A stretch of 46,924 nucleotides of DNA from Bacilli bacterium (lineage in GTDB: Bacteria; Bacillota_I; Bacilli_A; RF39; UBA660): assembly GCA_017936845.1 (NCBI GenBank), contig JAGBES010000019.1, positions 1-46,924 of the forward strand. Direction: 5' to 3'. The translations under genes were made by a program, and so were the position numbers. Under the pieces are notes generated by a model. The model ran no database searches. It worked only from the letters and a program-made list of their open reading frames with translations, and was not told the origin of the DNA. Positions 3,633 through 30,463 of this stretch are shown here, piece after piece (position 1 is the stretch's first letter; each line of letters opens with the position of its first letter).

Positions 3633-3654
3633 AGGCACATAATTATATGTGCCT
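3633..3654. terminator. Hairpin between convergent holA and pilB-like genes
   Basis: AGGCACATA (3633-3641) pairs perfectly with TATGTGCCT (3646-3654) around loop ATTA. The stem includes the stop codon of the minus-strand gene. The T-run is only moderate on the minus strand and absent on the plus strand, so it probably serves the pilB-like gene mainly. Confidence 0.6.
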
Positions 3655-5137
3655 AAAATTGTATATCAAGTAAGTCATCTAAAGGATCTTTAGAATTTCT
3701 TTTTGTTTCAGATTTATTTATATCATCAAGTAAACTATTAATATTATTTAAATTATCTTTTATGTTATTGTCAAAATTTTTTGATTCATCACTTTTAGAA
3801 TTTTTAATTTCATCAGCTTTTAATTCCTTTAAAAAATCTTCTGTTTCTTCAAGTTCTGTTTCATGTTTTTCTTCTTTATGTTTACCATTTTGTGAAATAT
3901 TAGTTAAATCTAATGCATCTTTTAAATCATATTCTCCTTCAGTAGCTTTATCATCATTATCTAATTCAATTATTTTTAAAATTTCTTCTACTGTAGTTTT
4001 TCCTTCAACTACTTTTTCAAGACCATCTTGAAGTAGAGTAGTTACATCATTTCTATAAACAAGTTCTCTTAATTTATCTTTACGTAAATTACTACTTATA
4101 GCATCTTTGATTTCTTGATTAACAAGCAATACTTCATGAATAGCAATACGTCCTTTATAACCATTGCTACATTCTTCACATCCTTCTACTGTGTAAACTT
4201 CTTCTATATCACGATTAAGAACTTTTTTAAATAAGTCTTTTTCATAATCATTAGTTGGTCTTTTTTTTGCACATTTAGGACATAATCGACGAGCTAATTT
4301 TTGAGATATAATACCTGTCAAAGCGCTAGCTAATAAATATCTTTCAACATCCATATCAAGTAAACGCTCAATTGTATTTAATGAGTTATTGGTGTGAATT
4401 GTAGATAATACTAAGTGTCCTGTGATAGATGCACGAACAGCTATTTTAGCAGTTTCAGTATCACGAATTTCTCCAATCATTATTATATTAGGGTCTTGAC
4501 GTAATATAGAACGTAGGGCATTAGCAAATGTAAGACCAATTTCACTGTTTGTTTGAACTTGATTAATACCTTCAATGTTCATTTCAATTGGGTCTTCAAC
4601 AGTAATTATATTTGTGTCTTCTTTATTAAGTCTTTGTAATATAGAATATACAGTAGTTGATTTACCACTACCTGTAGCACCTGTAACTAAAATAATACCA
4701 TTAGGGGCTGTAATCATTCTTATGACTTTTTCATAGTTTCCTTCACTAAAACCTAATGTTTCGAGTCCAGCTTGACTCATTGAATAATCAAGAATACGAA
4801 TAACTATTTTTTCACCCTCTAAAGTAGGTAAACAAGAAACACGAAGGTCTAGATCTAGACCTTGCAAAGTCTGTTTTATTGCACCATCTTGAGGTAATCT
4901 AGATTCTGTTATATTCATACCAGATATAATTTTTATACGAGTTATTAAATTCTTTTTTATTCCGTTTGGAACTTCAGCGTAATCAATTAAAGCTCCATCA
5001 ATACGTATTCTAATAAGCATAAATTCTTCATGAGGATCAAAATGAATATCACTTGCACCTCTTTTACTACTATCAACTAATATATCATTAACAATTTCTA
5101 CTACAGGGACTTTATCAAAATCAAATTTTTTTAGCAT
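3653..5137 (-). CDS. Type IV pilus / type II secretion assembly ATPase (GspE/PilB/ComGA family)
   Basis: Hexameric ATPase that powers pilus or pseudopilus extension from the cytoplasmic face of the platform protein. Visible elements: Walker A GATGSGKST (153-161), Asp box EDPIE (181-185), Walker B region IIMIGEIRD (218-226), His box HLVLSTIHTN (241-250) and a zinc-binding tetracysteine (C286, C289, C320, C323). It starts directly with the N2 domain (SDIHFDP near residue 30), so it lacks the N1 domain of long PilB/GspE and resembles ComGA. Unusually, a tail of ~100 residues (about 395-494) rich in Asp, Glu, Asn and Lys follows the catalytic core and ends DPLDDLLDIQF. It is divergent from two pseudopilin genes and 20 kb from the pilC/pilD block it must work with. 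Confidence 0.93.
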   Translation of the reverse strand: MLKKFDFDKVPVVEIVNDILVDSSKRGASDIHFDPHEEFMLIRIRIDGALIDYAEVPNGIKKNLITRIKIISGMNITESRLPQDGAIKQTLQGLDLDLRVSCLPTLEGEKIVIRILDYSMSQAGLETLGFSEGNYEKVIRMITAPNGIILVTGATGSGKSTTVYSILQRLNKEDTNIITVEDPIEMNIEGINQVQTNSEIGLTFANALRSILRQDPNIIMIGEIRDTETAKIAVRASITGHLVLSTIHTNNSLNTIERLLDMDVERYLLASALTGIISQKLARRLCPKCAKKRPTNDYEKDLFKKVLNRDIEEVYTVEGCEECSNGYKGRIAIHEVLLVNQEIKDAISSNLRKDKLRELVYRNDVTTLLQDGLEKVVEGKTTVEEILKIIELDNDDKATEGEYDLKDALDLTNISQNGKHKEEKHETELEETEDFLKELKADEIKNSKSDESKNFDNNIKDNLNNINSLLDDINKSETKRNSKDPLDDLLDIQF

Positions 5138-5185
5138 AAAAAATTCAACTCCTCTTTATTCTTAATTTAGGACTAGCTTTTATCC

Positions 5186-5209
5186 TAAATATATTATATA
5201 ATATATTTA
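5186..5209. promoter_or_regulatory. 24-bp perfect palindrome between divergent pilus genes
   Basis: The intergenic space between the pilB-like gene and the pseudopilins holds a perfect AT-only palindrome (TAAATATATTAT and its reverse complement). It carries a TATAAT hexamer on both strands, so it could be overlapping divergent promoters. A second inverted repeat lies just beside it: ATTTAGGA (5165-5172) with TCCTAAAT (5183-5190). Symmetry of this length at a divergent promoter suggests an operator or a shared melting region; no regulator can be named. Confidence 0.45.
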
Positions 5210-5239
5210 AGTTAAAGACAATAAAAAGGAGTTAAATTT

Positions 5240-5767
5240 ATGAAAAAAAAGAGCAAAGGTTTTATGTTACTTGAAACATTAGTTGTATCTACTTTTATTA
5301 TTAGTACACTTATATATCTTTATATTCAATTTATAAATTTAAAAAAAAGTTACGATATAAGTTTTAGATATGATACTATTCCAGGACTTTATAATTTAAA
5401 AGAAGTAGATAAATTTATTAATACAAATTATGGGTATGCTGATTTTATAAATAATACAGATATAATTACAAATGGATATACTGAAATATATAATAATAAC
5501 GAATGTAACATTAATTTTTTTTCAAATAATAATAACTATTGTGAAAAATTAATGACTAGTATAGGTGCTAAGACTATATTATTAGCTAAAATTGATTTAA
5601 CTACTACTAAAAATAATTTAAAAAATAATAATCCTTATTCAAATAATTTGTATTTATATATAAAAAGTATAAATTACACAACAAACTTAAATACATATCT
5701 TTTAATAATTGAATATAACGATAACACTTTTTCTAATATAAAAATAGAAAAAGAGGAGGTAAATTAA
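5240..5767 (+). CDS. Minor pseudopilin with type IV prepilin leader
   Basis: A short basic leader ends in a prepilin peptidase site G7|F8, with Glu at mature position +5 (FMLLE) and a ~20-residue hydrophobic helix, the class III signal of type IV pilins. The rest (about 140 residues) is Asn/Tyr-rich with no recognisable domain and two cysteines near the middle (NECNIN and NNYCEKL). Length and composition fit a minor (initiating or tip) pseudopilin. It overlaps the next pseudopilin by one base (TAATG), so the two are translationally coupled. It is divergent from the pilB-like ATPase and would be processed by the prepilin peptidase encoded at 27.7-28.5 kb. The start follows AAAAGGAG. Confidence 0.82.
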   Translation: MKKKSKGFMLLETLVVSTFIISTLIYLYIQFINLKKSYDISFRYDTIPGLYNLKEVDKFINTNYGYADFINNTDIITNGYTEIYNNNECNINFFSNNNNYCEKLMTSIGAKTILLAKIDLTTTKNNLKNNNPYSNNLYLYIKSINYTTNLNTYLLIIEYNDNTFSNIKIEKEEVN

Positions 5768-6267
5768 TGAAAAAGAGAGGTTTTACTGTAGTTGAATTAA
5801 TGACAACATTTGTATTAATATCTGTAATTGCAACACTTTTAATTAAATTAACTATTTCTTTAAAAGAATTGTATATAAGTGGTGATATGAAAACCACATT
5901 ACTAGCAAAACAAGGAACATTAACTGATAAGCTCAAAAATGATTTAAATAATAATGTTCTAACTGAAATGAATTCATGTGGTAATAATTGTATTACTTTT
6001 GTTTATAATACAGGTAGTAAAAACTTAAAAGTAGATAAAACAAATAAAATTATCACTTATGATAATTATGCTATTAAACTTGGTAAAGAAAATTCATTTG
6101 GGGATATTTATATAAATAAAGATGATTATGATATAGGAAGTATTGTTAAAATAAATATTTCAATTAAAAATAAATTATTAAAAGGGGATTATGGTATTAA
6201 TATTGTTCATCAAATTAATGATACTACAACTTTTGATTCTAACATTTTAACTACTTTTAATAAATGA
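5767..6267 (+). CDS. Second minor pseudopilin with type IV prepilin leader
   Basis: The product begins MKKRGFTVVEL: prepilin cleavage G5|F6, Glu +5 and a hydrophobic helix through about residue 28. The soluble remainder carries a close pair CGNNC (possible disulfide) and many Asn/Lys residues; no further domain is recognised. GAGG lies before the ATG, which overlaps the stop of the upstream pseudopilin. Its own last 11 bases overlap the 3' end of the convergent ylbJ-like gene, and I see no terminator between them. With its partner it likely nucleates or caps the pilus. The exact homologue (ComGD/E/F/G or GspH-K type) cannot be settled by eye. Confidence 0.82.
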   Translation: MKKRGFTVVELMTTFVLISVIATLLIKLTISLKELYISGDMKTTLLAKQGTLTDKLKNDLNNNVLTEMNSCGNNCITFVYNTGSKNLKVDKTNKIITYDNYAIKLGKENSFGDIYINKDDYDIGSIVKINISIKNKLLKGDYGINIVHQINDTTTFDSNILTTFNK

Positions 6268-19389: not shown

Positions 19390-20082
19390 CTTTATTTTTT
19401 CTTTTTCTTCTATAGTAACTCTTTTAGAATCACATATTTTACTTATTGATTTATTAAGAGTAAATTTATCTAATTTATTATTTAATAAGTAGTTATATGT
19501 TTTTTCTTTAAATTTTATATAACATATAGATATTAACCATGCATTAGCCATTTTTACGTAATAATTATCTAATTTAATAGAATTACTGATTTTAAATATT
19601 TTATCTATATATTCTTCATTTATATAAAAATCAATTAATAATACTAATCCCATTCTAATATAAAAAGGATTATTTATTTTTAAATATTTTTCTATTAATT
19701 TATATCCTTCTTGATAATTCTTTTTAAATATCTTCATATTAGCACATACAATGTCATTTATAGCCCAATTAGTATTATAAGGTATAAAATTATCTAAAAG
19801 TTCTTTTACTTCATTAAAGTCTTTTAAATATCCAATTATTAAACCATGAATAATTATTTCTTCATAATACTTATGTTTATTTAGTTTTATAAAAGATTTA
19901 TAATCCCCTTTGCTTATCTTTTTTGCTATTTCTTTTAAAATTGGTGTTTTTATACCTATTAAATTATTATCTAATATTAGTTTTGAATGAAAGTTTTTAT
20001 AGTTTATATTTTGTAAGCTTTTTAAATATTTTATAAATTTTTCATATACTTTTTCATTCCATATAGTATTTTCTAAAATCAT
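19375..20082 (-). CDS. DNA alkylation repair protein (AlkC/AlkD-like HEAT-repeat)
   Basis: An all-helical 235-residue protein fitting the AlkD group of DNA glycosylases, which remove N3- and N7-alkylated bases by trapping the flipped nucleotide in a HEAT-like superhelix. Family features visible are GIKTPILKEIAKKI near residue 45, EEIIIHGLIIGYLK, NWAINDIVC (the Trp-Asp pair of the lesion pocket), FYIRMGLVLLI and YYVKMANAWLIS. It overlaps deoB by 4 bp (ATGA), so it is the last gene of the xerD operon. Its presence beside uvsE and rarA in this window adds to a repair-rich gene set. Confidence 0.85.
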   Translation of the reverse strand: MILENTIWNEKVYEKFIKYLKSLQNINYKNFHSKLILDNNLIGIKTPILKEIAKKISKGDYKSFIKLNKHKYYEEIIIHGLIIGYLKDFNEVKELLDNFIPYNTNWAINDIVCANMKIFKKNYQEGYKLIEKYLKINNPFYIRMGLVLLIDFYINEEYIDKIFKISNSIKLDNYYVKMANAWLISICYIKFKEKTYNYLLNNKLDKFTLNKSISKICDSKRVTIEEKEKIKKIRK

Positions 20083-21227
20083 TTTAAATTATCTAATATA
20101 CTATTTTCTTTAGATAATTTAAAATTATCTAATATAGTATTTCCTATTACATCAAAGCATTTAATTGTATCTAATTTTTTAGGATTTTTAAATCTTTTAG
20201 AATAAATTATAAGTGGTGTATATTCTCTTGTATGATCTGTTCCTATGTAGGTTGGATCATTACCATGATCAGCCGTTATCATAAGTAAGTCATCTTCTTT
20301 TAGATTATCTATTATTTTATCTAGATAATCATCAAATTCTTTTAATGCATTTCCATATCCTATTGGATCTCTTCTATGACCATATTTTGAATCAAAATCA
20401 TTTAAATTAGCAAAACATAAACCTTTGAATTCTTCTTTTTCTATCTCAATTATTTTTAAAATTCCATCTAAATTATCTTGTGTTTTTATACTTTTTGTAA
20501 TACCACAATTATTAAATACATCTGCTATTTTACCTATTGAAATAACCGAATAACCATTTTCTTTTAATTTATCAAGTGCTGTAGAATGAACAGGATTTAA
20601 AGCATAATCATGCCTATTAGCTGTTCTAGTAAAATTTCCATTGCTTCCTACATATGGTCTTGCAATAATTCTACCAATTTTATATTCTTCTTTTTTTGTA
20701 AATTCTCTTATTTCACTACATATTCTATATAATTCTTCTAATGGTATTATATCCTCATGTGCTGCTATTTGAAGAACTGAATCAGCAGATGTATAAACAA
20801 TAAGTTCTCCAGTTTTCATTTGTCTATCTCCTAATTCTTTTATTATTTCTGTACCACTTGCTACACAATTTCCAATTACTTTTCTACCACTTATTTCTTC
20901 TATTTTTTTTATTATTTCATCTGGAAATCCATTCATAAATGTTTTGAATGGTCTTTCTGTTACAATACCCATCATTTCTAAATGTCCTGTTAATGTATCT
21001 TTTCCATTACTTATTTCATCTAATTTTAAATGATAAGCATTTGCTTCTTCATTTTTATTTGCTATTAAATTAAACATTCCCATTTTTTTTAAATTTGGAT
21101 ATGTATTATTTGTCTTTTCTATAGCATGTTTAAATGTGTTAACTCCTACATCATTAAATAATTTAGAATCTTCTTTTTCACCAATTCCTACAGAATCCAA
21201 TACTATTAAAAATATTCGTTTAAACAT
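20079..21227 (-). CDS. deoB: Phosphopentomutase
   Basis: Interconverts ribose/deoxyribose 1- and 5-phosphates, linking nucleoside breakdown to the pentose pathway. Alkaline-phosphatase superfamily metal ligands are in place: D11 in VLDSVGIGE, the TADHGNDP motif and DHTREYTP near the C-terminus, with YTSADSVLQIAAHE in the middle. The length of 382 residues is typical. GGAG lies 7 nt before the ATG. It follows the 845-aa unknown by 4 bp and overlaps the alkD-like gene by 4. In Bacillus deoB (drm) directly follows xerD; here the large unknown is inserted between them. No purine nucleoside phosphorylase is adjacent. Confidence 0.95.
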   Translation of the reverse strand: MFKRIFLIVLDSVGIGEKEDSKLFNDVGVNTFKHAIEKTNNTYPNLKKMGMFNLIANKNEEANAYHLKLDEISNGKDTLTGHLEMMGIVTERPFKTFMNGFPDEIIKKIEEISGRKVIGNCVASGTEIIKELGDRQMKTGELIVYTSADSVLQIAAHEDIIPLEELYRICSEIREFTKKEEYKIGRIIARPYVGSNGNFTRTANRHDYALNPVHSTALDKLKENGYSVISIGKIADVFNNCGITKSIKTQDNLDGILKIIEIEKEEFKGLCFANLNDFDSKYGHRRDPIGYGNALKEFDDYLDKIIDNLKEDDLLMITADHGNDPTYIGTDHTREYTPLIIYSKRFKNPKKLDTIKCFDVIGNTILDNFKLSKENSILDNLK

Positions 21228-21231
21228 TTTA

Positions 21232-23769
21232 TCATCTCCTATTATGTTCCTTATTATCTAGTGCACTATAAAGTTCATAATTTAATTTAACTTTCATAAG
21301 TTCTCTTAAATACTCATCTTTTGCTCTTTTATCGTATGATAAACAAGCGGTTTTTAATGAAAAATCTTCTCTTAAAGCAATATACCAATCTTCATTGCAA
21401 ACAACATATATATAGTCATCTATATTTATATTACTATATTCTTGATTATTTTGTTTTAAACTATTATATTCAATTTCATTTATTCTTTCTTCTATTATTA
21501 ATTTATCTTGATTTTGTTCTTTAGAAAAAACATAATTTTTTTGTCTTGGAATCAAATATTCTATTTTAGGTCTATATTCTTTTATATTATTAGCATTTCC
21601 AACTAATATATAATTCACTATATCATTTTTAATAAAATCGCAATAAAAATTATTATCTATAATAGGAATATTTTTAATTTTTATTTTTTCATATTTGCTG
21701 TTATCATTAATATAATTATGAAGATTTGTTATAGTACAAAAATCTATTTTCTCTGTTTTATCACTTTTTTTTATTATTTCACTATAACATTTTTTTAATG
21801 CTTCTATTATTATTGGAATTGTATCTTTATTTATATTATCTGGATCTATACCATTTCCATATATTCCATTTCCATTTCTTATTATTGGACACATATAAAA
21901 ATTGTTATTATTATCCCAAATTCCAATAACATCTGAATATTTACTAGTTAAGGCATATTTATAAAATTCTCCTCCTAATGCTCCTGGTTTAAAACAACTT
22001 CCAACATCTATTCCACATGTAAGTAGTTCAATATCATTTTTATCTAAAACTTTATATCTAATATTATTTTTGGTTACTCCTTTTGCTTTAGGAATTGTAG
22101 ATGAATTTTTCTTTCTATTCTCTTTAAAAATTTTTTTAAATTCTTTTAATGCCTCATTTTCATTAATAGTTAAGTGTTTTTTAGAAATAATGGTTTTTGA
22201 TAAAGCACTTAAAGGAATATCTTTTTCATCTACATCTAAGTTAAATTTCAATATTTTATGAACATCCAATATATTTAATAATTCTTTTTCACTAAAAGTT
22301 TTTTTATTTTCTTTACATAGATTTAACATTCTATCTATTTTATCAAATTCATTTATAATATTTATTAATTCTACATCATAATTAAGTAATTGATTATTAA
22401 AAAACATTCTAAGCAAACAATCATTATCTTTTTTTTCATTATCAAGTAATAAGTCTCTAATTTTAGAATCCATTACTACATTACCATTCTGATCAAATTT
22501 AGTTAAAAAACAATCATATTCTGAAAATATATTAAATAATTCCTCACAAGTTAATGGATTTCTTTTTTTACTGTTATTTTGATAGTAATTAGCTGTATAA
22601 AATGATTTTATATTTTTTTCTCTTTCATTTATCTCATTTTTAATAGTTTCATTTAGATAATTTAACATTTTTTGATCATTTTTATATAAAGTATAATTTT
22701 CTTTTAATTGTTCAAATAAAGAATTTACATATACTGTATCACCATTTGAACTTATTTTTTTTATAAAACCTTTTTCATTATTTTGCAAAGCTTTTTTCAG
22801 TTTTTCTATAGTTTCATAACTATAAAATTCATCTTGATTATTTATTCTATAATTACGTCTTTCATATAAAAAATTAAAATTTGCAGCTTTTTCTAAACTT
22901 TTGTTAGTAGAATATGTAAAATTATCATTTATAACTTTTAATGCGTTATCTAATCCAAATAGACAATATAATTTAATAGCTGTTATAAATATTTTATCAT
23001 TATTATCATATTTTTCTTTTTCTTTTAATTTTTGAATTATTTTTATAACATGTTTATTATTTAATATTTCTAATAATTCTAAGGATATATTATATTTATC
23101 TTGATTTTCATCATTAAATATTTCCTCACTTACTACAATATTAAATTTATTATATATATATAATTGGTTATATGTTTTTACTCTATATAATTCAAATATA
23201 TTTCTATTTTTTAACAAAAAATTATAACTTATTTGTTTTGCTAATTCATCGTTATTAATATTAAAATCATTTTTAATTTTCTGAATTAATTGTTCAATGT
23301 AATAACTATTTTTTACATTATTTCTAAAATCATTATATAAATTATTTATATTTACAATTAATGAATTCTTAGAAAAAACATCATTGTTATAAATATAATT
23401 ATTTAAATTATTTATAAACAATTCATATACATCTTTATTCATTGATTTTACTATATTATAGAGTTCTATATCATTTAATTTTAAAAATGGTTCTATGTTT
23501 TTTATTACTTCGTACTGTGTATCATTATCAATTACATTAAATTTTATTTTTTGACTTTGAATGGATTTAAGAAGTTTAAAAAGTAATTCTTGATTTTCAA
23601 TAAAAAATTTTTTTAAATTTTTACTTAAAAAATTAAATGTGCTATTGATAATATGATTTTCTGCATTTTTAAATTCTTCTGATGAAATTAATTCTTCTAA
23701 TTCAGAATCTGACATATTTTGAATTTTTTTTATGTAATCTACTAGATTTAATTTAAATATTTCTTCCAT
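21232..23769 (-). CDS. Large protein of unknown function (845 aa) in the xerD-deoB operon
   Basis: Not recognised by name. No signal peptide and no membrane span, so it is probably cytoplasmic. Residues 1-550 are Asn/Lys/Glu-rich and predicted to be helical. Residues ~565-840 look like a separate globular domain: it opens IRYKVLDKNDIELLTCGIDV and GSCFKPGALGG (cysteines at 585 and 592), then YALTSKYSDVIGIWDNNNNF, RNGNGIYGNGID and later YIYVVCNEDWYIALR. The Gly-Ser-Cys-Phe then Gly-Gly-Glu pattern recalls a poorly characterised Cys-containing, GNAT-like domain in large bacterial proteins (LTLG..T.CF..GG.GE type), but this is memory of a pattern only. AGGAGG stands before the ATG; the gaps to xerD (10 bp) and deoB (4 bp) show co-transcription. 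A wholly new gene in a conserved operon is notable. Confidence 0.75.
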   Translation of the reverse strand: MEEIFKLNLVDYIKKIQNMSDSELEELISSEEFKNAENHIINSTFNFLSKNLKKFFIENQELLFKLLKSIQSQKIKFNVIDNDTQYEVIKNIEPFLKLNDIELYNIVKSMNKDVYELFINNLNNYIYNNDVFSKNSLIVNINNLYNDFRNNVKNSYYIEQLIQKIKNDFNINNDELAKQISYNFLLKNRNIFELYRVKTYNQLYIYNKFNIVVSEEIFNDENQDKYNISLELLEILNNKHVIKIIQKLKEKEKYDNNDKIFITAIKLYCLFGLDNALKVINDNFTYSTNKSLEKAANFNFLYERRNYRINNQDEFYSYETIEKLKKALQNNEKGFIKKISSNGDTVYVNSLFEQLKENYTLYKNDQKMLNYLNETIKNEINEREKNIKSFYTANYYQNNSKKRNPLTCEELFNIFSEYDCFLTKFDQNGNVVMDSKIRDLLLDNEKKDNDCLLRMFFNNQLLNYDVELINIINEFDKIDRMLNLCKENKKTFSEKELLNILDVHKILKFNLDVDEKDIPLSALSKTIISKKHLTINENEALKEFKKIFKENRKKNSSTIPKAKGVTKNNIRYKVLDKNDIELLTCGIDVGSCFKPGALGGEFYKYALTSKYSDVIGIWDNNNNFYMCPIIRNGNGIYGNGIDPDNINKDTIPIIIEALKKCYSEIIKKSDKTEKIDFCTITNLHNYINDNSKYEKIKIKNIPIIDNNFYCDFIKNDIVNYILVGNANNIKEYRPKIEYLIPRQKNYVFSKEQNQDKLIIEERINEIEYNSLKQNNQEYSNINIDDYIYVVCNEDWYIALREDFSLKTACLSYDKRAKDEYLRELMKVKLNYELYSALDNKEHNRR

Positions 23770-23779
23770 GATATACCTC

Positions 23780-24643
23780 CTAACTATGTGGATGATAATG
23801 ATAGTTTTCTTTTATAAAATTATTTGATACATTTGTATATATTTGTGTTGTTGAAATATCAGAATGTCCTAATAACTCCTGTATAGTTCTAAGATCTGCT
23901 CCATTTTCTAACATATGCGTAGCAAAACTATGTCTTAATGTATGAGGAGAAAAAGAAGCTTTTATATTTTTTTCTTTTGCTATTTTTTTTATTATTTTAA
24001 AAAAAGCTTGTCTTGTCATTAATGTTCCATGTGTACTTAAAAATAAATAATCTGTATTTTTTTTTATAAATTCTTTACGATAATTTTCTATATATATATT
24101 TAAATATTTTAATGCATAATCACCTACTGGTATTATTCTTTCTTTATTTCCTTTTCCCATTATTTTTAAAGAACAATTATTAATATTTAAATCATGTGTT
24201 TTTATATTTATAAGTTCACTTATTCTAATACCTGTTGAATACATCAATTCAAGCATTGCTTTATTTCTATAGTCATATTTATCTTTTAATTCAATATTTA
24301 ATAATTTATCCACTTCTTCTACTGATAATACTTTAGGTAATGTTTTTTTTGTTTTAGGTAATATTAAGAATTCAGCTGGACTTTCTTTTATAATTTCTTC
24401 TATTATTAAGTATTTATAAAATCCTCTAAATACTGTTATAAAATGGGATATTGTTTTTTCATTTTTTGTTTCTTTTTGTTTTTCAATAAATTTAAGTAAA
24501 TCTTTTTTATTTAATTGTGTAATTTCTTTATTTTTATAAAAATTTTTTAATTCTTTTAAATCGTTTTGATATGATTTAATTGTATTATTACTATATTTTT
24601 TATCTATAAGTAAATATTTTATATATTCTTCTATATATTTCAT
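23780..24643 (-). CDS. xerD: Tyrosine recombinase XerD
   Basis: Site-specific recombinase that, with XerC or alone, resolves chromosome dimers at dif at the septum. The 287-residue product has an N-terminal SAM-like core-binding domain (NTIKSYQNDLKELKNFY) and a catalytic domain with all active-site residues: R140 (TGIRISEL), K164 (GKGNKERI), H234 and R237 (HTLRHSF), H260 (LLGHSDI) and the nucleophile Y269 (TQIYTNV). Its operon position ahead of deoB matches Bacillus XerD/RipX rather than a mobile-element integrase, and no attachment repeats or cargo are seen. A GGGG site precedes the ATG. It is the first gene of the four-gene operon. Confidence 0.93.
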   Translation of the reverse strand: MKYIEEYIKYLLIDKKYSNNTIKSYQNDLKELKNFYKNKEITQLNKKDLLKFIEKQKETKNEKTISHFITVFRGFYKYLIIEEIIKESPAEFLILPKTKKTLPKVLSVEEVDKLLNIELKDKYDYRNKAMLELMYSTGIRISELINIKTHDLNINNCSLKIMGKGNKERIIPVGDYALKYLNIYIENYRKEFIKKNTDYLFLSTHGTLMTRQAFFKIIKKIAKEKNIKASFSPHTLRHSFATHMLENGADLRTIQELLGHSDISTTQIYTNVSNNFIKENYHYHPHS

Positions 24644-25966: not shown

Positions 25967-26443
25967 TTATTGACAAGCTATCCAATTTACTGATGTATCA
26001 TATGTCATAATGTACCATGATGATATACCATTAAATATTATTCCATTATTATTTAATTCAAACATTGAACTATAATCTGTAGCTTTGTCATCATTTCCAT
26101 TGTTATAATAAGCCGAACCAATAATTTTTTCACTAATATTGTTATTATAATTAAATGAATAAAACATTTGTTTAGATGAAGTATATGAAAATATTGTAAA
26201 TTTACTAGGTTTAAATCCAATTTCTATATTCCATATAGGTTCATTTCCACCAATATGATTGAAACTTCCGGTTGTACAATTATTACTTTTATTATACAAA
26301 TCATTCAATGCACTTTCTACAGTTGTGTCCTTATATTTAATATTACTTGCTAAATATGTAGTTGCTGCATAAACTGAAACTATACTAAAAGGCAAACCTA
26401 TTAATATTCCTAATATTAAATTTTTATTTAATACTTTTTTCAT
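25967..26443 (-). CDS. Secreted pilus-block protein with YKDTTVESALNDLY motif
   Basis: An N-terminal hydrophobic segment with a likely signal cleavage after VYAAT (about residues 12-28), not a prepilin leader. Straight after it comes IKYKDTTVESALNDLYNKSN, a motif also found behind the signal peptide of the 230-aa protein upstream and, in variant form, at the end of the major pilin between them. The remainder (about 100 residues) is Asn/Ser/Tyr-rich and probably strand-forming, with two cysteines (NNCTT and the penultimate Cys). It is the last gene of the pilC-pilD-pilin transcript. A minor pilus component or surface adhesin is the best guess; there is no named family. Confidence 0.72.
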   Translation of the reverse strand: MKKVLNKNLILGILIGLPFSIVSVYAATTYLASNIKYKDTTVESALNDLYNKSNNCTTGSFNHIGGNEPIWNIEIGFKPSKFTIFSYTSSKQMFYSFNYNNNISEKIIGSAYYNNGNDDKATDYSSMFELNNNGIIFNGISSWYIMTYDTSVNWIACQ

Positions 26444-26451
26444 TTAATCAC

Positions 26452-26943
26452 CTAATTTTCGTATAAATAATCTAATGCTTCTTCTACTGTTGAAACATTC
26501 CAATTTGGATCACTAGGAGTAAATTTAACGGCTGAAGCATTAATTTTTTCATTCACTTCATTACATTTACCTACTACTTGTGCTTCAATTCCGTTATATT
26601 CTACGCTATAATCATTTATACATAAAGTTGCTTTTATAACTCTTCCTTTTGTTATTGATATTTTCCCACTTTCTGGCTTTGTTCCTTTTAATTCTAAATT
26701 TCCTATTGTACTTATATCAATATCTGTTCCATCATTTATTAATGGATACTTTGTATTATTAATTTGATACATTGAATTATTATATTCTATGGCTTCAATG
26801 TAACCATATGCTGAGTCTACAGCTGCTGATTTTTTAGAATCATTTATTATATTTAATATTATTGGAGTTGCTATAAGCGCTATAATTGCTAATATTACTA
26901 TAACAGCAAGTAACTCTATTAATGTAAAACCGCTTTTTTTCAT
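26452..26943 (-). CDS. Major pilin, type IV / ComGC-like prepilin
   Basis: Begins MKKSGFTLIELLAVIVILAI: prepilin peptidase site G5|F6, Glu +5 and a 25-residue hydrophobic helix identical in layout to ComGC and PilA. Then NIINDSKKSAAVDSAYGYIEAI continues the long N-terminal helix. The C-terminal part has a Cys pair (TLCIN and GKCNE, likely disulfide) and finishes with NVSTVEEALDYLYEN, a motif it shares with the two neighbouring secreted proteins. The best consensus prepilin leader of the three in the window, together with its place beside pilD, makes it the likely main fibre subunit. AGGAGA precedes the ATG. Confidence 0.88.
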   Translation of the reverse strand: MKKSGFTLIELLAVIVILAIIALIATPIILNIINDSKKSAAVDSAYGYIEAIEYNNSMYQINNTKYPLINDGTDIDISTIGNLELKGTKPESGKISITKGRVIKATLCINDYSVEYNGIEAQVVGKCNEVNEKINASAVKFTPSDPNWNVSTVEEALDYLYEN

Positions 26944-26964
26944 AATATTCTCTCCTTCTATAGA

Positions 26965-27657
26965 TTATTGTAATTCAATTTTTGTTATCTTAACATCACA
27001 TTGATTTAATCCAACTGCAATATAATATTCACCATTTAATGATGAAATATCAATTTCTTGCTTAAAATCACCAACATTATATTTTGTGTTTTTTAAAATT
27101 TTAGTATTTGATGGTTCATATGAACTTCCCCAATATTTATTTTCTGAAACTAGTGTATAAACTCCTTCAGATGAATCAGGATAAATTGATGATAAAATAG
27201 TTCCTTCAACAATTAATTTTGAAAAATCAGATAAATCGACTTTCTCTTTAGTGAATACTCCTCCACCTCCACCATTTGTGTTTCCATTTATGAATATATG
27301 ATCATTATTTAATGTATATGTTATGCCTGAATATGTTGTCCTATTAATTTTTTCAAAATCTATTGATGCATTGCCATTTAAGTATAATTCTCCAGTAATT
27401 GGAAGTCCTGCATTATAGTGTTTAATTGATATCCATTTGTTTAATTTACTATTATATACTTCTACATTTTTGCTTGCTTCATTATATCTAACATATTTAT
27501 TTGAAGAATTACTATATAATTCATTTAGAGCATCTTCTACAGTTTTATCTTTATACTTAATATCTTTAGCCATGTATGATACAGCATATACTGTTCCACT
27601 TGTACAAATAATAGCAGTTATTATAATGGCTATTATAATTTTAAAATTTTTTTTCAT
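26965..27657 (-). CDS. Secreted pilus-block protein (230 aa) with YKDKTVEDALNELY motif
   Basis: N-terminal signal/anchor (about residues 5-27, ending VYAVS), then MAKDIKYKDKTVEDALNELY, the block's shared motif. The remaining ~180 residues are strand-rich: a NKWISIKHY segment, a GGGGG turn near residue 133 and an ending NGEYYIAVGLNQCDVKITKIELQ, which looks like a beta-sandwich or tail-fibre-like surface domain. It does not begin with a prepilin leader. AAGGAG lies before the ATG, directly behind the T-run of a hairpin that follows pilD. A role as accessory pilus or adhesion subunit is inferred from position and motif; no family is recognised. Confidence 0.72.
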   Translation of the reverse strand: MKKNFKIIIAIIITAIICTSGTVYAVSYMAKDIKYKDKTVEDALNELYSNSSNKYVRYNEASKNVEVYNSKLNKWISIKHYNAGLPITGELYLNGNASIDFEKINRTTYSGITYTLNNDHIFINGNTNGGGGGVFTKEKVDLSDFSKLIVEGTILSSIYPDSSEGVYTLVSENKYWGSSYEPSNTKILKNTKYNVGDFKQEIDISSLNGEYYIAVGLNQCDVKITKIELQ

Positions 27658-27671
27658 AATATTTTCTCCTT

Positions 27672-27699
27672 AAAAAATATAAATTTAATATTTATATTT
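27672..27699 (-). terminator. Hairpin with T-run inside the pilus operon, after pilD
   Basis: ATTTATATTT and AAATATAAAT (27675-27684 and 27690-27699) form a 10-bp stem. On the minus strand TTTTTT follows and runs straight into the AAGGAG ribosome site of the 230-aa gene. The stem includes the pilD stop codon. It may attenuate transcription or protect a processed 3' end. Confidence 0.65.
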
Positions 27700-28459
27700 C
27701 ACTTAGTAAATTTAAAACCCAATTGAAATCTATTTTAAATAGTACCATTATAATTGCTGAAATTGCTAAAAACGGTCCAAATGGTATTTCATGATTTTTT
27801 AATTTTTTTATTAATATTAATGATACAGGTAATCCTATAAATGATGCTAAACATATAGATATACATGATGTAGGCCATCCTAAAACCATTCCATATATAA
27901 ACATAAGTTTAATATCTCCTCCACCCATTGATTCTTTTTTAAACATAAAATCTCCAATTAGTTTTATAATAAACATTATTGAAAACATTATAACTCCATT
28001 TAATAAAGAATTTAGCAAACCAGTTATATTACTTTTAAAATAAATTTCAATAGCTAATAAAATGCTCGTAAAAATTAATAATTCATCTGGAATAATCATT
28101 GTTTGATAATCGCTTATTATTACGATTAATAACATAGAAATAAATGTTAAAGCTATTAATAAATCTATTGATATTCCAAACACTAAATAAGAAATAGAAA
28201 ACAATAATCCTGTTGTAAATTCAAATATTGTATAAAACCATGATATTTTATCACCACATTTAGTACATTTACCTCTTTGTAGTAAAAAAGATATTATTGG
28301 TATTAATTCAAATGGTGTTAATTTATGTCCACATTTAGTACAATGAGATGCGGGAAATGCAATTGATTCACCTCTTGGAAGTCTATAACCAACCACATTA
28401 TAAAACGAACCTAAAATTGTGCCAAATATAAAGAATACAATTGCATAATATATTTCCAT
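27692..28459 (-). CDS. Type IV prepilin peptidase / N-methyltransferase (PilD/ComC)
   Basis: Membrane aspartyl protease that cleaves the Gly|Phe leader of the three prepilins in this window. It begins with the FGTILGSFYNVVGYRLPRGES element and keeps the cytoplasmic zinc-binding tetracysteine (C40, C43, C65, C68) typical of bifunctional enzymes that also N-methylate the new Phe. The catalytic aspartates are D117 (ISDYQTMIIPD) and D182 (GGGDIK). About seven to eight membrane segments; 255 residues is usual. It lies 9 bp after pilC in the same operon. Confidence 0.94.
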   Translation of the reverse strand: MEIYYAIVFFIFGTILGSFYNVVGYRLPRGESIAFPASHCTKCGHKLTPFELIPIISFLLQRGKCTKCGDKISWFYTIFEFTTGLLFSISYLVFGISIDLLIALTFISMLLIVIISDYQTMIIPDELLIFTSILLAIEIYFKSNITGLLNSLLNGVIMFSIMFIIKLIGDFMFKKESMGGGDIKLMFIYGMVLGWPTSCISICLASFIGLPVSLILIKKLKNHEIPFGPFLAISAIIMVLFKIDFNWVLNLLSEI

Positions 28460-28468
28460 ACTTTTCTC

Positions 28469-30463
28469 CTATCCCATTTCTTGAACAGCTGAATACATAG
28501 TAAACATAGGTATAATAATTGATAATAAAATTACACCTACACCGAATGTTAAGAAAATAGTAAGTGCTGGTTCAACAAATGTTTTAATTCTTGTAACTGA
28601 ATTTTTATGTAAATCTTGATAATATAAAGATACTTTACCCATCATTTCTGATAATTCACCAGTCATTTCTCCTGTTACAATCATTTCGTAAGCTGGAACT
28701 GGAAATGCCCAATGGTCTTTAAATGCATCTGATATTTTTCCACCTCTTGCTAAATTAGCAATAGTATCAAGAATAAGCATTTTATAAATTTCATTATTTG
28801 TTATTTTATTTAATATTTCCATACAATCTGTTATTGGAACATTATGTGCTAGTAACGAAGAGAAAGTTTTAGTAAACATCGTAACCTCGTTATAAATTAT
28901 AGTATTTTTAATAACAGGAACATGCATCATTATCCATTGACACATTGTTCTGAATGATATTATTTTTTTATAACTATATATAAATATTGCTATAAATGCA
29001 ATTACAACTAATATTAATAATATATAATAATGTGTTAAGAATGAACTTAAAGCTAATATTGCTTTTGTAATACCTGGTAATTCCGTATCCATTGTTTCAT
29101 ATATTTCAACGAATTGAGGTACAACATATACCATTATAAAAATCATAACTGCAATAGCAAATATAAATACAAGTGTTGGATATGTCATAGCTGTAATCAT
29201 TTGTTTTCTTGTTGCTTCAGCTTCAGTATAATAATTTGCCATATCATCTAATACTTCAGGCAATGAACCTGTCATTTCAGCTGTTTTAACCATGTTAATT
29301 AACAATTTTGGAAAAGCTACACCTTGTTTTTCCATAGCTGTACTAAAATTTTCTCCTATCGTTAATTCATAAATAACTGATCTAAAGATTTTTTGATATG
29401 ATTTTTTCTTATATTGTCTTGATATTATTCTAAGTGATTCAACAAGTGGTATACCTGCTTTAATATAAGTTGATAATTGTGTTAAGAAAAATATTAAATC
29501 TTTATTTTTAAATTTTGTTTTATTTGTATTGCTATTTTTATGAAATAACTGAATAAATTTATTAGTTCTAATACTATATACTTCATATCCTTCACTAAGT
29601 AAATAAGAGTGAACTTCTACTTTTGAATAAGCATTAAAATAATCTTTTATTATTTTTCCGTTTTTATCTTTTGCTACATATTCATATAATAGTTTCTTTT
29701 CACTTTTTTTAGCATCTTCTCCTTCAAAATCAATTAACAATATTTGGCGCTTCATATCTTTTTTATTACGTCTATTTTTTGAGAAAGAATTGTTTGTTAT
29801 TTTTGATCCAAGTGAAACAAAAACCAATCCTATATTTTTAAAGAATGAATTTAATTTTGATTTTAATGTAGGTTTTTCAAGTTTTACATTTTTATTAACA
29901 TAAGCTTCTTCATTGATTTTTTTCTTACGTAATTTTTCTTTTTTTTCTTTTTCTTTTTCAAGATTCTTTTTCTTTTTGATTTCTAATAATTCTTGTTTTT
30001 CTCTTTTTTCTTTTTCTTTTTTTTCTATAAAAATAGTAGCTAATTCTTTTATTTTTTCTTGTCTTAACTGTTTTTTATCAATTTTATTAATTTTTTCTTT
30101 TTTTACTGTTTCTTTTTTCTTTTCTGCTATAATTTCTTTTTTTACTGGTACAATTTCTTTTTCTTTCTTTATTTGTTTGATTTTTTTTGTTTTTTCTTTT
30201 CTTTTAAAAGGCATTATAATTAATTTACCTATTAATTTAAATACATCAAATACACAAACACATACAAATAGAATTCCATAAAAAGCTTTCTTTATAATTA
30301 AAAAATTAATATATAATAGATATTCTAACCCTAAAAATAAATATTTAGCCATTTTATAAATTAAGTATATTATAAAGAATAATCCTTTAAATGGATAGAA
30401 AAATAATTTTACAATTGAAAAATTAGATTTATTTTTTTGTTTATTTTTCATGTAAAACACCAT
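28469..30463 (-). CDS. Type IV pilus/type II secretion platform protein (PilC/GspF/ComGB) with long N-terminal extension
   Basis: The C-terminal ~400 residues (from about 260, YEYVAKDKNGKIIKDYFNAYS) are a normal platform protein with two T2SSF domains (about 325-450 and 525-655) and three membrane spans, including MVYVVPQFVEIYETMDTELP after the first span. This part binds the PilB-like ATPase and pilin. Ahead of it lies a ~255-residue extension not normal for the family: hydrophobic segments at about 15-80 (one to three possible membrane helices), then ~100 residues of almost pure Lys/Glu repeats (about 87-190), predicted to be a charged single helix or coiled coil. ATG 30463 follows GGGAG. 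It is the first gene of the pilC-pilD-pilin operon. Confidence 0.9.
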   Translation of the reverse strand: MVFYMKNKQKNKSNFSIVKLFFYPFKGLFFIIYLIYKMAKYLFLGLEYLLYINFLIIKKAFYGILFVCVCVFDVFKLIGKLIIMPFKRKEKTKKIKQIKKEKEIVPVKKEIIAEKKKETVKKEKINKIDKKQLRQEKIKELATIFIEKKEKEKREKQELLEIKKKKNLEKEKEKKEKLRKKKINEEAYVNKNVKLEKPTLKSKLNSFFKNIGLVFVSLGSKITNNSFSKNRRNKKDMKRQILLIDFEGEDAKKSEKKLLYEYVAKDKNGKIIKDYFNAYSKVEVHSYLLSEGYEVYSIRTNKFIQLFHKNSNTNKTKFKNKDLIFFLTQLSTYIKAGIPLVESLRIISRQYKKKSYQKIFRSVIYELTIGENFSTAMEKQGVAFPKLLINMVKTAEMTGSLPEVLDDMANYYTEAEATRKQMITAMTYPTLVFIFAIAVMIFIMVYVVPQFVEIYETMDTELPGITKAILALSSFLTHYYILLILVVIAFIAIFIYSYKKIISFRTMCQWIMMHVPVIKNTIIYNEVTMFTKTFSSLLAHNVPITDCMEILNKITNNEIYKMLILDTIANLARGGKISDAFKDHWAFPVPAYEMIVTGEMTGELSEMMGKVSLYYQDLHKNSVTRIKTFVEPALTIFLTFGVGVILLSIIIPMFTMYSAVQEMG

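Follow-up and report, generated by a model that had tools for sequence, protein, structure and literature searches.

Gene context of the 845-residue protein

The window, by which we mean the whole stretch of 46,924 nucleotides analysed here, carries xerD, a gene for an 845-residue protein and deoB on the same strand, with gaps of 10 bp and 4 bp between successive genes (Table 1). The tight spacing and the good ribosome-binding site (AGGAGG, 6 nt 5' of the ATG) described in the first-pass annotation were both confirmed, and the two C-terminal motifs that it quoted, TCGIDVGSCFKPGALGG (residues 584-600) and RNGNGIYGNGID (residues 631-642), are present. The whole protein gave no match in Pfam, PHROGs, NCBIfam, PADLOC or the PDB sequences, in keeping with its earlier description as unrecognised, and a search of its own genome found the gene in single copy. 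Full-length homologues and dN/dS values of approximately 0.14 (L005/L019), 0.19 (L005/L022) and 0.21 (L025/L082) in close orthologue pairs indicate that the reading frame is a real gene and not a chance occurrence. A scan for transcription signals was uninformative, with 69 promoter-like sites, against 59.7 expected, and 0 terminators.

The GC content is 18.3% for the gene, 19.4% for xerD and 24.6% for deoB, the mean for window stretches of 2,538 bp being 21.7%. The composition, which had been described as like that of the neighbours, is thus inside the window range yet at its low end (rank 6 of 222 stretches), and a recent foreign insertion, as judged by composition, was rejected. Amino acid identity to the congener G030 is 55% for the 845-residue protein, compared to 68% for DeoB and 80% for XerD, indicating that the gene evolves faster than its neighbours. 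Names of neighbouring genes given without a Pfam match were assigned by eye; these include type IV pilus-like genes (PilB-like ATPase, pilin-like, prepilin peptidase and PilC-like) at window positions 3653-6267 and 25967-30463. Two more tyrosine-recombinase-like matches lie close together in the window genome (G000:C8:197-1042 and 2041-2898).

Table 1. Features of the locus, in window coordinates.
Feature	Position	Strand	Basis
845-residue solenoid-GNAT-fold gene	21232..23769	-	ATG start; homologues, dN/dS
xerD, upstream flank	23780..24643	-	Pfam phage-integrase family
deoB, downstream flank	20079..21227	-	Pfam metalloenzyme superfamily
Ribosome-binding site AGGAGG of the 845-residue gene	23776..23781	-	6 nt 5' of ATG; sequence
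AGGAG of deoB, within the last codons of the 845-residue gene	21236..21240	-	sequence
Residues 1-430, predicted all-alpha, solenoid-like by eye	22480..23769	-	AlphaFold2 full length, almost only helices
Residues 560-727, predicted GNAT-fold domain	21589..22092	-	AlphaFold2, Foldseek-PDB, VIA-align
Residues 742-838, predicted second alpha/beta half	21256..21546	-	VIA-align to N-terminal halves of GNAT folds
C592 codon, invariant Cys of the family	21994..21996	-	Cys in 85/87 rows, other two gapped
R631 codon	21877..21879	-	Arg in 81/87 rows

The xerD-deoB interval in related genomes

We compared the gene order at 79 related deoB loci from outside the genus of the window, which comprise L127-L145 and 60 loci chosen mostly top-down from a further list, with some skipped; L146-L149 (split deoB, two weak matches) were omitted. 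Here and below, genome surveys are drawn samples and not exhaustive. Six of the 79 loci do not have xerD inside the stretch and were excluded, leaving 73 pairs. The gap between the two genes is 11-80 bp in 66 of these pairs, all within the order, which corroborates the claim that the gene is inserted in a conserved xerD-deoB operon. The remaining seven pairs carry inserts of 507-1,312 bp, and the 845-residue gene is found in none of the 73.

Within the genus, G000, G030 and G146 carry the 845-residue gene between xerD and deoB, and in G147 the family gene is split over two contig ends, one beside xerD and the other beside deoB. In a further congener, G145, the slot is occupied instead by a 273-residue gene (L160:7186-8007), whose product matches AbiEii (PF08843, E = 1e-14) and gave no match in the PDB. 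Among the genomes checked, the gene is thus a genus-specific insert in the xerD-deoB interval. The first-pass annotation had considered it not an obvious recent insertion, and this holds to the extent that the insert is old, with congeners at 55% identity; its confinement to the genus among the genomes checked speaks the other way.

An AbiEii protein also accounts for one of the seven inserts outside the genus, a 274-residue protein in G078, from genus g78 (L189:104-928; PF08843, E = 8e-14). Each of the two AbiEii genes stands alone in its slot, no antitoxin gene being recognised beside either. Inserts encoding proteins of 162-163 residues that belong to one family are found in three genomes of two other genera (L128:1002-1493, L164:4035-4523 and L185:101-589), and the one member tested had no Pfam match. 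Of the remaining inserts, one encodes a 260-residue protein whose RIO/kinase matches are below threshold, one comprises two ORFs and one encodes a 221-residue protein.

A large unnamed family shares the C-terminal domain

The C-terminal domain is common to a large unnamed family of proteins of approximately 600-1,800 residues found in gut Bacilli, some Clostridia and large phages. Searching with the single sequence detected homologues, some of them full-length, in 12 of 145 genomes of the taxonomic family, the window's own included. A profile of these first 12 homologues matched 91 of the 385 genomes sampled from the order, and many of the matches are much larger proteins with other N-terminal regions; the protein family is therefore common among these gut Bacilli with small genomes, where it occurs in several architectures and at times in more than one copy, and the members tested gave no profile match in the libraries searched. 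The A5 profile, built from nine proteins with the window protein excluded, recovered the window gene with E = 1.1e-33 as an independent check, and the protein also has C592 and G586, which characterize the family (see below). In wider samples, the A2 profile matched 12 of 296 genomes of the class (ten in the taxonomic family, the others with E values of 1.6e-7 and 7.1e-4), and the A5 profile matched 4 of 392 genomes of the phylum, all in the taxonomic family.

The A6 profile, representing the canonical branch, identified 36 loci in genome contigs, titled mostly as uncultured Bacilli and Clostridia, as well as 3 viral contigs of 129-379 kb (L119-L121). A tblastn search with one member gave matches in three records of Microcystis phages (E = 3e-5 to 4e-5) and a weak match to one Alkaliphilus plasmid gene (E = 5e-3), while a Foldseek search against viral models gave one strong match, A0A7G9A3X2 (BFVD, E = 1.5e-8). 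The full-length 845-residue protein had no match in phages, and scanning genome and viral contigs for patterns of the single sequence revealed no relatives. The earlier designation as lineage-specific is consequently correct for the insertion, seen in the genus only, and incorrect for the family, whose members extend to Clostridia and phages. We found no description of the family in searches of the open literature or in the GNAT passages of PMC7824862 and PMC5512222, subscription papers and preprints being outside this scope.

In a tree with two fragmentary rows and with long branches that group together among the paralogues, 20 rows including that of the window form one clade (100/100). Elsewhere than in the window genus, orthologues have varied neighbourhoods and a patchy distribution, and in G054 the orthologue is interrupted (L081:4183-7176), with its N- and C-terminal pieces split by an opposite-strand ORF that presumably encodes a transposase, judging from its appearance. 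Together with the faster divergence compared to neighbouring genes, these features point to an accessory character. Large family members also occur as neighbouring tandem copies (L099:5315-11098 and L102:3093-12779). A defence-island context was considered and rejected, the neighbours at 12 loci looking, by eye, like ordinary chromosomal genes.

Predicted structure

We modelled residues 430-845 with AlphaFold2 using a 50-row alignment (mean pLDDT 87.5, pTM 0.85), as well as the full-length protein using 20 rows (mean pLDDT 87.0, pTM 0.74). According to these models, the protein, which would be cytoplasmic, consists of two parts, a helical, solenoid-like N-terminal region and a C-terminal domain with an atypical GNAT fold. 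When the C-terminal model was compared to the PDB using Foldseek, the best 50 listed matches were all acetyltransferases or complexes containing them, with a best E value of 0.038 that never reached 0.001. For the full-length model, the best E value was 0.14 (probability 0.99), and 48 of the best 50 listed rows were GNAT proteins, the exceptions being Cand1-Cul1-Roc1 and condensin.

VIA-align, whose lists cover residues 560-727 and partly residues 742-838, also returned mostly GNAT-fold chains for both models, with best Z values of 7.9 (C-terminal model) and 8.3 (full length) for residues 560-727, values between 7 and 8.3 being in the middling range for this tool. The alignment of this region to 8gxj_B (Z = 8.3) superimposes 145 residues at 3.6 Å. 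Residues 742-838 align to the N-terminal halves of GNAT folds, such as 1yr0_A (Z = 7.6, 2.7 Å, 87 residues), a weak likeness of the model that may simply reflect a common arrangement.

Acetyltransferase profiles of Pfam and NCBIfam did not match the 845-residue protein, nor did those of Pfam match any of the 50 members scanned, in which scattered weak matches, in one or two members each, were rejected. The A2 profile matched PDB sequences with a chance-like E value of 0.1 at best. A match to a well-described enzyme family, which the first-pass annotation had named as evidence against its reading, hence did not turn up at the sequence level, and the structure prediction that it had called for upheld the GNAT-like character of the C-terminal region at the level of the fold. 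The E values are weak and the GNAT assignment rests mainly on the consistency of the structural match lists; on this basis, we consider the GNAT-like fold and the family assignment to be highly probable.

An invariant cysteine and a missing CoA motif

Conservation was analysed in an alignment of 87 rows (50 A2, 33 further bacterial and 4 phage or plasmid sequences). C592 and G586 are kept in 85 rows, that is, in every row not gapped at these positions, and the AlphaFold model places C592 in the loop that connects the first helix of the GNAT domain to the second. Cysteine is found at position 585 in 4 of the 50 A2 rows and at position 591 in 16 of them. The conservation test proposed earlier for C585 and C592 is thus passed by C592 and failed by C585, and the notion of a C585/C592 catalytic pair was rejected. 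R631 is not Arg in any of the four phage or plasmid rows; at position 639, the 37 rows outside A2 all have D, and the A2 rows have N, D or Q. The canonical branch reads G-x-x-T-x-C-C ... AQSWxWRNGNxxCFDNxE, and the window branch has lost the AQSWxW segment.

In GNATs, the acetyl-CoA pyrophosphate motif [RQ]xxGx[GA] follows strand beta-4. We found this motif in the beta-4/alpha-3 loop in 0 of the 87 aligned rows, and a GxG sequence in the same loop in six, three of them from phages. Its absence suggests that acetyl-CoA, bound as is usual in GNATs, may not serve as the donor. The most fitting description is that of a family with a GNAT fold that does not pass the CoA-motif test.

A cold-shock-like partner gene

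At 13 of 21 loci, an ORF for a cold-shock-like protein of 63-81 residues overlaps the 3' end of the large gene, in one case (G147) as a fusion, a count that is partly circular since ten of the 11 sequences in the A7 partner profile come from the genomes counted. The A7 match to the PDB, in which cold-shock proteins are the best matches (E = 1.4e-4), and the detection of partners in G222, G353 and G355 are free of this circularity. By this PDB match the partners qualify as cold-shock domain proteins; against the Pfam CSD profile (PF00313), the L092 ORF scored E = 2.1e-5 and 24.7 bits, below the curated cut-off of 27 bits, and the L029 ORF alone had no CSD match.

The window species and 7 other loci of the 21 lack the partner, which is therefore not strictly needed. 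In the tree it was lost twice, in the clade of g52 and g81 and in the window genus after G147 had branched off. G057, which lies outside the 20-row clade, also has a cold-shock-like partner, so the pairing of the two genes predates the split of the clade. An in-frame fusion in G147 joins the partner to the DeoB N-terminus (457 residues, L015:779-2152), with neither an ATG nor a stop at the old deoB start. An intact partner elsewhere in the window genome was sought and rejected, since the only match was a generic one (22.5 bits, compared to 87.7 bits for the G147 partner).

Other genes also overlap or abut large family members. Proteins of approximately 320-340 residues with partial similarity to aldehyde dehydrogenases overlap the ends of large members at L105:8310-9332, L103:8205-9173 and L076:3509-4468, and another type of partner, carrying a DKAEVLAxLYN segment, overlaps or abuts them at L087:8200-9606, L089:8239-8979 and L049:6327-6986. 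This segment is conserved and recurs in phages and on a plasmid, the L089 partner having relatives in Dulem virus 39, Streptomyces phage Gilgamesh and a plasmid of Priestia.

Possible function

From the computed fold, family, partner gene and slot, we infer a catalytic activity, a target and a role in conflict. Our preferred explanation, which we hold tentatively and with somewhat less than even confidence, is that of an accessory solenoid-GNAT transferase-like protein, ancestrally associated with an RNA-binding-type partner and plausibly involved in phage or mobile-element conflict. The family gene, ancestrally paired, at least in the window branch, with the overlapping downstream gene for a small cold-shock-domain-like protein, would have entered the xerD-deoB interval in the window genus as accessory cargo. 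The solenoid would recognise a macromolecular target, probably RNA or a ribonucleoprotein in view of the cold-shock-type partner, and the GNAT domain would transfer an acyl or aminoacyl group to it. We see the chances that the family catalyses the transfer of some group as evenly balanced. Such a transfer could form part of a response to phages or mobile elements, as suggested by patchy presence, fast divergence, the interrupted copy in G054, the phage relatives and the sharing of the slot with AbiEii. The missing PADLOC match, the ordinary neighbours elsewhere, the other unexplained slot inserts (AbiEii being one of seven outside the genus) and the failure to recognise antitoxins next to the AbiEii genes speak against a conflict role, and the preferred explanation as a whole has against it the missing CoA motif (0/87), the weak Foldseek E values, the middling VIA-align Z values and a partner that is not universal.

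The main alternative to acetyl-CoA as a donor is aminoacyl-tRNA, from which FemABX, Aat and Ate1 take their donor group instead of from CoA. A GNAT-fold domain using this donor, with the partner handling RNA, would account for the missing CoA motif and for an RNA-binding-type partner gene, and FemA (1lrz) is among the top VIA-align rows (Z = 7.9, 3.6 Å, 135 residues aligned), with the highest identity of that list (16%). Dozens of CoA-dependent GNATs, however, score equally well (Z within 1), and no sequence match to the FemABX or Ate1 families was found in Pfam or NCBIfam; we regard this alternative as unlikely. The missing P-loop motif would equally suit a non-catalytic scaffold, in which the fold is kept for binding only and the solenoid serves as an adaptor or sensor. 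Ornithine decarboxylase antizyme is a GNAT-like fold kept for binding, antizyme chains are among the VIA-align matches (Z = 6.9 and 6.7), and R631 and its flanking motifs change between clades. Yet the invariance of C592 and G586 across Bacilli, Clostridia and phages, and the restriction of position 639 to D, N or Q, exceed what a bare scaffold would need, and we doubt this reading as well.

The same cysteine, with G586 the most conserved residue and placed by the model in the loop mentioned above, could instead act as a nucleophile or acyl carrier in a thiol enzyme, an option raised in the first-pass annotation and narrowed here to one Cys; the second Cys is nevertheless dispensable (positions 585 and 591), and there is no match to a thiol-enzyme family in Pfam or NCBIfam, making this distinctly improbable. 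A housekeeping role tied to XerD or DeoB, in chromosome dimer resolution or nucleoside metabolism, would fit the tight spacing and shared direction with deoB and the fusion of the cold-shock-like domain to DeoB in G147. Gene order disfavours it strongly, since the family gene is absent from the slot at 73/73 related loci outside the genus, orthologues elsewhere adjoin unrelated genes and one congener has AbiEii in the slot instead; we consider such a role very improbable.

Returning to the solenoid-GNAT transferase-like protein, the family, if it does consist of transferases, would represent a branch of the GNATs that has an invariant Cys but not the usual CoA motif. Should it have a role in conflict, the xerD-deoB interval would provide a clean natural experiment, with the family gene or an AbiEii toxin in the slot within one genus. 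A bolder version, which we put forward as a speculation that is probably wrong in at least some part, is an undescribed conflict module in which a long helical arm recognising an invader- or stress-linked nucleoprotein is joined to a GNAT transferase that works without the CoA P-loop via the invariant Cys; this module would have a cold-shock RNA-binding partner, swap chromosomal slots with AbiEii-type toxins and have counterparts in large phages.

Comparison with known systems

The likeness to the GNAT superfamily lies in the predicted fold of residues 560-727; the 845-residue protein differs in having neither the CoA P-loop motif nor a Pfam GNAT match, and in being much longer, with a helical N-terminal half. 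GNAT-RHH type II toxins (AtaT, TacT, KacT) share the GNAT fold and, possibly, a translation- or RNA-linked target. According to published abstracts, however, they are two-gene modules with a DUF1778/RHH antitoxin, whereas the 845-residue protein and its relatives have a downstream cold-shock-type partner or none. The window locus, where the neighbours are xerD and deoB, shows no small toxin with an adjacent RHH/DUF1778 antitoxin. AbiEii toxins (PF08843) share the occupation of the slot, being found there in one congener as well as in genus g78, but are unrelated proteins, the 845-residue protein having no PF08843 match in Pfam.

Polyvalent proteins unite several enzymatic domains in a single polypeptide encoded by a phage or conjugative element. 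In the passages of PMC5512222 on GNAT domains, they are large conflict-element proteins that can include such a domain; their GNATs are described there as RimI-like, with an ART domain as the typical neighbour in one family. In contrast, the 845-residue protein joins an atypical GNAT fold to a helical arm, in a chromosomal housekeeping context (by eye), and no second enzyme domain was recognised in it using Pfam. Large phages encode proteins, annotated as hypothetical (those of Microcystis phages MaMV-DC, AGR48633.1, and MaMV-DH01, UWV19712.1, those of L119-L121 and A0A7G9A3X2), in which a long N-terminal region precedes the same C-terminal domain with its Cys. Unlike the window protein, those read keep AQSWxW, FDNxE and a GxG after beta-4, and do not have R631.
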